Source: Synechococcaceae cyanobacterium SM2_3_1 (GTDB lineage Bacteria; Cyanobacteriota; Cyanobacteriia; Thermostichales; Thermostichaceae). From it: a stretch of 64,000 bases of DNA. The stretch is from assembly GCA_012030715.1 (NCBI GenBank), contig JAAUUJ010000001.1:1-64000 (forward strand), written 5' to 3'. The translations under genes were made by a program, and so were the position numbers. Positions 53,245-58,307 of the stretch are shown in pieces. Under the pieces are notes generated by a model. That model was given only the letters and a program-made list of their open reading frames with translations, was not told the origin of the DNA and did not search any database. The number at the start of each line of letters is the position of its first letter. Position 1 is the first letter of the stretch.

Positions 53245-53730
53245 ATGAGCGTTGTCACAAAATCGATTGTGAATGCTGACGCAGAAGCGCGTTATTTAAG
53301 TCCTGGTGAGCTTGAACGGATTAAGTCCTTCGTGTCTAAGGGTGAAGCTCGTCTTCGCATTGCTCAGGTTCTGACTGAGTCTCGTGAGCGGATTGTGAAG
53401 CAAGCGGCGGATCAGCTTTTCCAGAAGCGGCCTGATGTGGTCTCCCCTGGTGGAAATGCCTACGGTGAAGAAATGACCGCCACCTGTCTGCGCGACATGG
53501 ACTATTATCTGCGTCTGGTGACCTACGGAGTCATTGCGGGTGATGTCACTCCCATTGAAGAGATCGGCCTGGTGGGTGTGCGGGAGATGTACAACTCCCT
53601 GGGCACTCCGATCCCAGCTGTGGCAGAAAGTGTGCGCCAGATGAAGTTGGTGGCCACCAGTCTGCTGTCTGGGGATGATGCCACTGAAACAGGTTACTAC
53701 TTCGATTACGTCGTGGGCGCCATGAGCTAG
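53245..53730 (+). CDS. apcA: ApcA allophycocyanin alpha subunit
   Basis: 161 residues. Conserved phycobiliprotein sequence from [17 protein letters not shown] to [20 protein letters not shown]. The bilin-attachment cysteine is in [13 protein letters not shown], with the conserved aspartate for chromophore contact. It is a phycobilisome core subunit. The ribosome site is GAGGATG before ATG 53245. It is the first gene of apcABC. Confidence 0.98.
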
Positions 53731-53796
53731 TCCCGATGGGATTAGTCCTGACCCTTTTTTTGTTCCATATCTAAGAAACCAGCATAGGAAGTCATC

Positions 53797-54282
53797 ATGC
53801 AAGACGCAGTTACTGCTGTAATCAATAGCTACGACGTTCAGGGCAAGTACCTGGATGCCTCTGCAATGGATAAGTTGAAGTCCTTCTTCTCCACTGGGGA
53901 ATTGCGAGTGCGGGCAGCTGGTACGATTGCTGCCAATGCCTCCACCATTGTCAAAGACGCAGCTGCGAAAGCCCTGCTGTACTCTGATCTGACCCGTCCC
54001 GGTGGCAATATGTACACCACCCGTCGTTATGCCGCTTGCATCCGCGACATGGACTACTACCTCCGCTACGCCACCTATGCCATGCTGGCTGGCGACACCT
54101 CCATTCTCGATGAGCGGGTGCTCAACGGTCTGAAGGAAACCTACAACTCTCTGGGAGTACCCATCGGTGCCACCATCCAGGCAATTCAGGCCATGAAGGA
54201 AGTGACCGCCTCTCTGGTGGGCATGGATGCAGGGAAAGAGATGGGTGTTTACTTTGATTACATCTGCTCTGGCTTGAGCTAA
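53797..54282 (+). CDS. apcB: ApcB allophycocyanin beta subunit
   Basis: 161 residues, [20 protein letters not shown], with the bilin cysteine in [13 protein letters not shown] and the asparagine-methylation-type region in [12 protein letters not shown]. Partner of ApcA in the phycobilisome core trimer. It begins 66 bases after apcA, and a strong hairpin follows the gene. Confidence 0.98.
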
Positions 54283-54285
54283 TTA

Positions 54286-54306
54286 GCCCCCACTTGAGCG
54301 GGGGGA
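54286..54306 (+). terminator. GC hairpin between apcB and apcC, probable attenuator or processing stem
   Basis: CCCCC - about 8 bases - GGGGGG right after the apcB stop with no T tract. In other cyanobacteria a similar stem lowers apcC message compared with apcAB. It likely acts as a partial terminator or mRNA stabiliser. Confidence 0.55.
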
Positions 54307-54436
54307 AGTGAACCCCCTGAGCAGACAGCCTACTGCAGGGATCTGGTGTGCACATGTGCGCGAGCTTTCTGAAGTGAGCTGTCTGCTTTTAGCTTTGATA
54401 GACCTTTGCAAAGATTTTTCTAAATAGGGCTTGACT

Positions 54437-54640
54437 ATGCGCATGTTCAAAGTTACGGCTTGTGTCCCCAGCCAAACTCGGATTCGCACCCAGCGGGAGC
54501 TCCAGAACACCTATTTCACTAAACTGGTTCCCTATGAGAACTGGTTCATGGAACAACAGCGGATTCAGAAGTCTGGGGGACGGATCCTCAGAGTTGAGCT
54601 GGCAACCGGCAAACCGGGTCTGGATGTGGGGTTGCTATAA
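54437..54640 (+). CDS. apcC: ApcC core linker protein Lc
   Basis: 67 residues, MRMFKVTACVPSQTRIRTQRELQNTYFTKLV, the standard small linker that caps allophycocyanin trimers. I use ATG 54437, because the ORF-track start 54431 is TTG. It is the last gene of apcABC and is followed by a candidate terminator. Confidence 0.97.
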   Translation: MRMFKVTACVPSQTRIRTQRELQNTYFTKLVPYENWFMEQQRIQKSGGRILRVELATGKPGLDVGLL

Positions 54641-56177: not shown

Positions 56178-56337
56178 AGATCTCCTGAGTCAGTTCCCAC
56201 TACTGAATCAACAGAATGCACAGAGATACCACCTGCAGCAGAGTATCCTATTTGGCACCTGTTTGTCACCTAGCGCACTCCGCGTCCTTCACCTCAGGTT
56301 TACCGGCTACCAGAAGATTGTGATAGTCTCATAATGT

Positions 56338-56591
56338 CGTTTAGTAAGGGGGATTGCACTGAATGCCCGATAGTAGTAAACATAAGGGTCATCTCGTTGG
56401 AGTTAGCCGGCTGTGGGCCGGGGCTGTTCTCTAACCGTTAGATTCTCTGCCCTTCAGACTACTGAAGAGCTTCAAGGGTCCGACGTGTGGGGTTCCTCCC
56501 GGCAGTCAGGTTCCGCTTGAAGACCCGCTAGACCGCTCCCTCTCCTTACTAAACGCGAAGCTCCTGCTAAGCGCCTACGGGTTGGGAGCGG
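56338..56591. ncRNA. Candidate structured RNA, class and strand undetermined
   Basis: This lies in the 423-bp gap between the FHA and GT39 genes with no ORF. A perfect 12-bp inverted repeat CGTTTAGTAAGG (56338-56349) / CCTTACTAAACG (56544-56555) would close a roughly 218-base RNA. Inside are hairpins CCGGC-5-GCCGG, CTTCAG-4-CTGAAG and a GGGTC/GACCC stem. A second perfect 8-bp stem CCGCTCCC (56533-56540) / GGGAGCGG (56584-56591) crosses the first, giving a pseudoknot or two alternative folds. A CATAAT box lies at 56330. A 6S-like RNA is possible but not demonstrated. Confidence 0.5.
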
Positions 56592-56600
56592 ATAGTTATA

Positions 56601-58307
56601 TTAAGGCTGGTTGACCATCTTCAGAAAGGCTCCGTGCTTTTCCAGGGTGAATAGCGATAAATTCAGACTCAACTCTGACTCAAAAGGGATCCAGGTGATC
56701 ACGGTTGCAGCAGGTTCGTTCTTGAGCAGGGTCTGTAATTCTTCTACTGTGGCCGCGTAGGGAACGTGGAGCGGTCCATAGAAATAGGGAATATAGGAGC
56801 GATAACCGTAGAGGATCAGAGGGGCAGTGGTTTGATCCTGGGTCTGAAAGAACTGAATCGCCCCTCCCTGGGCATGCAGCAAGAGATGGGGAGCCAGACC
56901 CAGCCAGACACTCTGGGCGGTCAAACCTGAAAAACCTAGCAGCAGCATCCAGGCCCACAGGCTCCGTTGATTCAGGCTCATCCACCAGCTGAGTAGGCCA
57001 ATCATCAGAAACAGAGCCGGAAGGAAGCTCCAGAGGGGCCAAGCAACCGGAGCGCGCAGATAGCCAAGGGTCAGGGGATCTTGAATCCAGGTCTTGAGCA
57101 GACTGGGATGACGTCCTAGCCAGGGGACGAGCGTGAGAAGAAATAACCAGAACAGCCCTGTGCAGAGGATCCCCGCTATTTCCAGAAAGGAGGGAGTTGC
57201 CTGCTTCTGGAGGAATTGATGGAGTCGCAGGGCCGCCCAGAAGGATCCGAGAGGGTAGAGCAATGAAGTGTAGTGGATCAGTTTGGTTTGCACCAGCAGA
57301 GAGAACACCGCCAGGACAACGGCAATCGCCACGATACTCAGATGCAAGAAGGCTTGTTGTTGCTCGGTAGGGGCAGTTAATTGGGGTGGGTGCCGCCTCC
57401 ACAGTGTTGATCCGAGTGCCCCCACTGAGAGAAAGGCAAAGGGAAAACAGCCGAGGCCATAGGCCAGGATATGAAAGTAAATGGGTCCGGGGTGTCCATC
57501 ATTCCGAGTTAGAATCCGCCATTGATACCTGCTAAACTCCACCACAAAGTCTGGCCCCTGAAACCAGAGTTCCAGGATAAACCAGCTGCAGGCAACCCCC
57601 CCACTGATCAGCAGAAAGAGAGCCACCTGCCATAACTGCGGGTAAGGACGACGGTGCCAGCACTTGTATAGAACCCAGATGATCATGGGTAATCCCCAAC
57701 CGAGAGGTCCTTTGGTCAGGACAGCCAGACCCAGGGCAACCGCTGCAATCAGCAGAGGCACCACTCCCTTTTTCTCCTTTGAAATCTGTTGATCCATGAA
57801 AAATAAGCCCCCCAGCCCCATCAGCATCAACAGGTTAAGCAGGGGATCAATTAAGCCAGTTTTGCCAAACCAGAGGGGGAGAAAACTGGTGCAGAGCAGG
57901 ATTGACCAGAGCAGGGCCAGCGCGGGTCCCCACAGATAGACTCCTACCCCATAGAGCCCGGAAACTGTCATCCCACTGGCGAGGGCACTGGGCAGGCGGG
58001 CAGTCGTCTCAGATAGTCCACCCCAGGAAAAGGCCATGGCCTGCAACCACATGAACAAAGGAGGTTTTTCCCAGAAAGGGTCTCCGTTGATGATCAACGA
58101 CAGCCAGTCTCCAGATACCACCATCTGGCGGGCCAGGCTGGCATAGATCAGTTCATCCCAATCAAATAAGACAGGCTGACCTTGAAAAGCGAGAAAAAGA
58201 AAAGCTGCACACAGGCCAATGACAAAGGTCATCAGACCTCTTTGCCGCATCAGGGTTTGTGCAGACTGATCCAACCTGACCCAATCCAGAGCCGGAGTTT
58301 TTTTCAT
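56601..58307 (-). CDS. GT39-type membrane glycosyltransferase (ArnT/PMT-like)
   Basis: 568 residues with about 10 or more transmembrane helices. The N-terminal catalytic loop has LFDWDELIYASLARQM and the later DPFWEKPPLFMWLQA, the acidic and lipid-linked sugar-recognition features of the family. It probably transfers a sugar or aminosugar from a polyprenyl phosphate donor at the membrane. Its ATG follows the 58320 gene. Confidence 0.85.
   Translation of the reverse strand: MKKTPALDWVRLDQSAQTLMRQRGLMTFVIGLCAAFLFLAFQGQPVLFDWDELIYASLARQMVVSGDWLSLIINGDPFWEKPPLFMWLQAMAFSWGGLSETTARLPSALASGMTVSGLYGVGVYLWGPALALLWSILLCTSFLPLWFGKTGLIDPLLNLLMLMGLGGLFFMDQQISKEKKGVVPLLIAAVALGLAVLTKGPLGWGLPMIIWVLYKCWHRRPYPQLWQVALFLLISGGVACSWFILELWFQGPDFVVEFSRYQWRILTRNDGHPGPIYFHILAYGLGCFPFAFLSVGALGSTLWRRHPPQLTAPTEQQQAFLHLSIVAIAVVLAVFSLLVQTKLIHYTSLLYPLGSFWAALRLHQFLQKQATPSFLEIAGILCTGLFWLFLLTLVPWLGRHPSLLKTWIQDPLTLGYLRAPVAWPLWSFLPALFLMIGLLSWWMSLNQRSLWAWMLLLGFSGLTAQSVWLGLAPHLLLHAQGGAIQFFQTQDQTTAPLILYGYRSYIPYFYGPLHVPYAATVEELQTLLKNEPAATVITWIPFESELSLNLSLFTLEKHGAFLKMVNQP

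Follow-up and report, generated by a model that had tools for sequence, protein, structure and literature searches.

Here we report that the plus strand of the window, by which we mean the whole 64,000-nt stretch of Synechococcaceae cyanobacterium SM2_3_1 DNA that was analysed, carries at approximately 56336-56600 the local copy of a class-wide cyanobacterial RNA gene. The copy is new and the family is already known: going by the features described for its members, the window RNA almost certainly belongs to the family of Sye_sRNA1, TU475 and ncl0160. We consider it probable that this local copy is a dual-purpose RNA with its own promoter and terminator, acting as the mRNA of a microprotein and also, depending on its translation, keeping the 3′ arm of the RNA fold hidden or leaving it free. 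From 5′ to 3′ the element consists of a leader, a Shine-Dalgarno (SD) sequence, a 23-codon open reading frame (ORF) that doubles as the 5′ arm of a rod, the 3′ arm of the rod and a terminator hairpin, and this anatomy is conserved. The parts of the window copy are:

56321..56329, plus strand: probable extended -10 promoter TGATAGTCT (TGnTAnnnT), read from the sequence
56338..56349, plus strand: leader segment CGTTTAGTAAGG, the 5′ arm of a 12-bp stem
56346..56352, plus strand: Shine-Dalgarno sequence AAGGGGG (AAGGAGGTGAT in most relatives)
56363..56434, plus strand: short ORF MPDSSKHKGHLVGVSRLWAGAVL, 23 codons and TAA
56386..56431, plus strand: 5′ rod arm, within the ORF, from consensus structure and covariation
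56435..56488, plus strand: apical part of the rod, variable in sequence and length between lineages
56489..56526, plus strand: 3′ rod arm GGGGTTCCTCCCGGCAGTCAGGTTCCGCTTGAAGACCC, from consensus structure and covariation
56527..56596, plus strand: terminator hairpin, pairing GCTA (56527-56530) with TAGT (56593-56596) and CCGCTCCC (56533-56540) with GGGAGCGG (56584-56591)
56544..56555, plus strand: CCTTACTAAACG in the terminator loop, the 3′ arm of the 12-bp stem

A TGnTAnnnT element lies at the equivalent position in the family-f1 homologues L002-L008, and we infer the promoter from this element, since a consensus sigma-70 scan gave no match on the plus strand. Transcription from it would produce an RNA of ∼260 nt, running from about 56336 to about 56600 and ending at its own terminator hairpin. 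Relatives have a T-run after this hairpin; the window tail, TTATATT, is weak, and a terminator prediction scan of the window did not call the hairpin. With a poorer SD (AAGGGGG) and a poorer T-run, this copy might have lower activity. An ARAGORN scan of the window and of relatives' loci found no tRNA and no tmRNA.

A nucleotide search with positions 56260-56610 gave matches in 36 of 59 related genomes, reaching far beyond the family, and the 5′ part of the element is gap-free in an alignment of 20 genomes with all loci oriented to one strand. Model R1, a sequence-only model of 93 nt taken from this gap-free part, matched 290 of the 390 genomes of the class, nearly always in single copy, while some small-genome families had no match. 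In a phylum-wide sample every R1 match listed falls in the same class, with none outside it among the matches listed. The gene occurs in most families of the class, even in very divergent ones, which suggests an ancient role among oxygenic cyanobacteria. Second copies, partial or full, were seen in two genomes (G004, C1:1063382-1063461; G045, C329:437-612). The Infernal search against Rfam that had been proposed with the original prediction, run at gathering and relaxed thresholds, matched no model to the window element and returned one chance-level match in relatives, and NCBIfam gave no match for three peptides of the RNA family.

Covariation was counted on an alignment of 103 diverse full-length copies (A4). 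Standard pairs fill 95.1% of the cells of the rod and terminator structure, changes on both sides are seen in 33 of the 46 pairs, and double-change cells number 382 against 80 ± 17 in shuffles, a comparison that relatedness inflates; against slid controls, which relatedness does not inflate, pairing falls to ∼50% when the structure is displaced by a single column. The functional strand is the plus strand, since many conserved G-U pairs would be A-C mismatches on the opposite strand. In local folding, plus-strand positions 56330-56600 are more stable than dinucleotide shuffles (z -2.6, 3/200), and the minus strand somewhat less so (z -2.1). A mutual-information scan placed mainly rod and terminator pairs on top and produced no further convincing helix and no conserved antiterminator pairing. 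A local hairpin inside the ORF (CCGGC/GCCGG) was considered and set aside; it is compatible with the alignment (96.3% paired) and unsupported beyond the rod. The original prediction had taken this locus for a structured-RNA candidate in a non-coding gap, and the decisive covariation in relatives establishes it as a genuine structured RNA gene. The gap is free of any ORF of at least 60 aa, as that description implied, but it does contain the 23-codon ORF; this ORF and its ribosome-binding site were missed, as was the fact that the 8-bp stem serves the terminator.

A rod of the kind first imagined does exist, but it is built from 56386-56431 paired with 56489-56526 rather than from the 12-bp stem, and its length and imperfect pairing recall 6S RNA, which had been offered as one possible fold. 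We give almost no credence to a 6S-like regulator of RNA polymerase at this locus. RF00013 has no match there at the gathering score or at E values up to 5, and seven of the eight genomes tested, including two of the same family, have a 6S match at another locus. What the two RNAs have in common is a long rod and not a sequence or model. The window's own draft genome (G000) has no RF00013 match at E values up to 10, which counts in favour of the 6S reading, although the most likely cause is that the draft assembly is incomplete (∼91% complete).

Two perfect stems had been predicted, crossing each other in a pseudoknot or a switch between folds. Both are present in the window, CGTTTAGTAAGG being perfectly complementary to CCTTACTAAACG over 12 bp and CCGCTCCC to GGGAGCGG over 8 bp, and they do cross; their standing in the family is different. 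The 8-bp stem forms the stem of the terminator hairpin (helix 7 of the alignment), with 98.4% of cells paired and six pairs changed on both sides. Of perfect 12-nt inverted repeats whose arms are separated by no more than 260 nt, the 64-kb window contains two, the 12-bp stem among them; simple counting predicts about one, so this stem is not significant by itself. Its leader arm has a core, CGTTTAG, that is a common leader motif among homologues; the complement of this core is not common. Across the 103 homologues, pairing of the leader with the terminator loop has a median per-sequence p of 0.44; it is complete in the window only, partial (7-8 bp) in the sister genus (L002), and absent from the same-family members L003-L008 and from the remaining homologues. 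A general leader/terminator-loop pseudoknot is therefore rejected, the crossing stem not being kept across the 103 homologues, and the pairing is lineage-specific at best. In that narrower form, a pseudoknot confined to the window genus would hide part of the SD, which the perfect 12-bp complementarity partly covers; with the pairing at chance level over the window and absent beyond the sister genus, we regard even this as improbable.

The ORF is kept open behind its ribosome-binding site over the whole range of the family. A start codon stands at the expected place in 193 of 194 homologous loci (ATG in 190, GTG in 3), and 167 homologues have exactly 23 codons, closed by TAA (111), TAG (51) or TGA (5). 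The automated start was misplaced in two of the 193, L002 and L065, which read from the right start have 23 and 17 codons, respectively. Insertions in divergent genomes comprise whole codons, so that the frame is kept, and a few divergent lineages stop early, after 16-17 codons. What stays constant is the start, the SD, the frame and the stop rather than each residue. The SD of the family is among the longest in the genome: at least 10 contiguous nucleotides, and mostly 10-12, are identical to the complement of the anti-SD in 159 of 193 homologues, and AGGAGGTGATNNNNATG occurs in three of five genomes, once or twice each, with one occurrence always belonging to the RNA gene. Three loci of family f24 (L075, L079 and L080) keep the SD and the first codons (D-S-S-K), with a GTG start in two of them, but no 3′ arm or terminator of the usual form could be located there.

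psbD is found upstream and on the same strand at 105 of 194 loci, at a median distance of 197 nt, and CobB (CbiA domain) is upstream at 15 further loci; psbD as a fixed partner was rejected, as about half of the loci, the window among them, are without it. Downstream on the same strand are a pterin-4a-carbinolamine dehydratase in 88 loci and an SLH-domain porin in 108. In the window the element lies between an FHA protein gene and a PMT-family protein gene, both on the minus strand, with neither psbD nor cobB adjacent. The full anatomy is kept without psbD, CobB, pterin dehydratase or porin as neighbours, so the RNA is an independent gene. A leader ORF and a terminator ahead of same-strand genes also describe a transcription attenuator, here one controlling the pterin dehydratase and then the porin. 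Such a device is very improbable, given that many lineages keep the whole element without these neighbours, that the covariation scan shows no conserved antiterminator pairing, and that the next window gene (56601-58307) is on the minus strand; as a general model it is rejected, because the window's downstream gene is on the opposite strand and the neighbours are dispensable. As an observation on gene order, the same-strand arrangement psbD - RNA - pterin dehydratase - SLH porin recurs, in whole or in part, in distant families (downstream of the RNA in L012, L014, L017, L018, L055, L056, L065, L074 and others), and this suggests an old cluster that was broken up in other lineages.

Two published descriptions converge on these features. 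In the part of their paper concerned with it, Tan et al. (2018, PMC6091082) describe Sye_sRNA1 as a ∼200-nt RNA, the most abundant sRNA of S. elongatus UTEX 2973 under control conditions and transiently lowered by high light, with 53 homologues of conserved structure, most of them downstream of psbD or cobB; its counterpart in Synechocystis 6803 is TU475, and TU2045 is also named. Brenes-Alvarez et al. (2016, PMC4734099) proposed, on the basis of RNAcode, that ncl0160 (a name after Mitschke 2011a) encodes a 23-25 aa peptide with homologues in most cyanobacteria, always with a ribosome-binding site, mostly with ATG and sometimes GTG starts, and with TAA, TAG and TGA stops in 47, 34 and 2 cases in 83 strains. 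In model cyanobacteria, rRNA apart, no transcript is reported to be more abundant than this family. The window RNA resembles Sye_sRNA1, TU475 and TU2045 as a stand-alone structured cyanobacterial RNA with psbD and cobB as recurrent neighbours, although the window copy sits between FHA and PMT-family genes and the section of the paper on Sye_sRNA1 mentions no ORF. It resembles ncl0160 in the 23-25 aa range, the ATG starts with few GTG, the ribosome-binding site and the three stop codons, the window ORF having 23 aa and TAA. The broad conservation (290/390 genomes) and covarying secondary structure agree with the published family, as do the counts for psbD (105/194) and CobB (15), and the window copy, without either gene beside it, is like part of the family in this. 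The main text of the ncl0160 paper draws no link to Sye_sRNA1, and the one-family reading is ours, taken from the descriptions: we infer that Sye_sRNA1 and ncl0160 are one family with a window member because the homologues found here match in their unusual psbD/cobB neighbours as well as in their ORF features. Literature on psbD2-linked RNAs gave no direct match, and the family link came through PMC6091082.

Two rival functions were weighed. One is a plain microprotein gene, with the 23-aa peptide as the sole functional product and a fold that merely stabilises or paces the mRNA; the other is a trans-acting, base-pairing regulatory sRNA, as which Tan et al. treat Sye_sRNA1, with an ORF that is incidental or only modulates the RNA. 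The conserved ORF, the strong SD and the RNAcode-based proposal favour the microprotein gene, but a conserved 3′ arm and a covarying rod exceed the needs of a short mRNA, and the peptides are truncated or diverged in several lineages; we rate this reading as possible and, on balance, rather unlikely. An sRNA would explain why conservation is more uniform for the RNA structure than for the peptide and why lineages with an early stop retain the rod. It accounts less well for the class-wide retention of the start, the near-maximal SD, in-frame length changes and three alternative stops, and we judge it unlikely.

Substitution patterns bear on both. The dN/dS values are indications and not tests, being pairwise counts on related sequences. 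In codons 9-23 the ratio is ∼0.5 in frame, compared with 1.9 and 1.3 in the other two frames, and in codons 16-23 it is 0.24; this constraint in the second half of the ORF, seen in frame only, speaks against a pure sRNA, and wobble pairing in the rod could contribute to it. In codons 2-8, which lie outside the rod, the ratio is ∼1.5, with no purifying selection on the peptide, and codons 4-5 read AGU AGU in nearly all cases, their third positions varying no more than the other two, both of which fit an sRNA. Peptide-level selection had been expected at the N-terminal MxDSSK, and this expectation was dropped, the dN/dS pattern being the reverse: selection shows in the later codons, in the second half of the ORF. 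Four loci (L059, L064, L065 and L067) stop after 17 codons and retain the rod beyond the stop; the C-terminus of the peptide is dispensable in them, as the RNA fold is kept despite the early stop, and they constitute a natural separation of the peptide C-terminus from the fold.

In the dual-purpose reading, which we favour, the layout of the ORF within the rod couples the two functions. The consensus structure leaves the SD and everything up to codon 8 unpaired, so a ribosome could load without opening the rod. Elongation would then have to melt the rod, as the ORF forms the 5′ arm and the stop codon is usually found at the top of the rod, and translation and the folded rod are thus predicted to exclude each other. 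Translation would in this way decide between a hidden and a free 3′ arm. Some observations count against this reading: the peptide is under no purifying selection in codons 2-8, some lineages keep the fold with a 17-codon ORF, and the window copy has a weaker SD, a poor T-run and no psbD or cobB beside it. Like the dual-function RNAs SgrS/SgrT and SR1/SR1P (see the discussion in PMC5126843), the window RNA has a short ORF with an SD within a structured small RNA; unlike in those, the ORF is itself one arm of the main helix, and no homology is claimed. Once the sRNA and peptide-gene descriptions are combined with a covariation-tested structure and the position of the ORF inside the rod, it becomes clear which mutants would separate peptide, translation and fold. 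A more speculative version, which we consider quite unlikely, extends the dual-purpose reading to a class-wide translation sensor, in which passage of the ribosome opens the rod and exposes the 3′ arm, ribosome supply becomes an RNA signal and the peptide is secondary. If true, a very abundant RNA with a near-strongest ribosome-binding site in the genome would report the supply of free ribosomes.

Elsewhere in the window, an hsp33-like gene and apcA/B/C-like genes were recognised by eye, a gene content in keeping with a cyanobacterium. The latter, two phycobiliprotein genes and a small linker gene on the plus strand (53245-54640), resemble apcA-apcB-apcC, and inverted repeats between the second and third of them (54320-54387 and 54394-54423) possibly mark an intercistronic processing or termination site.
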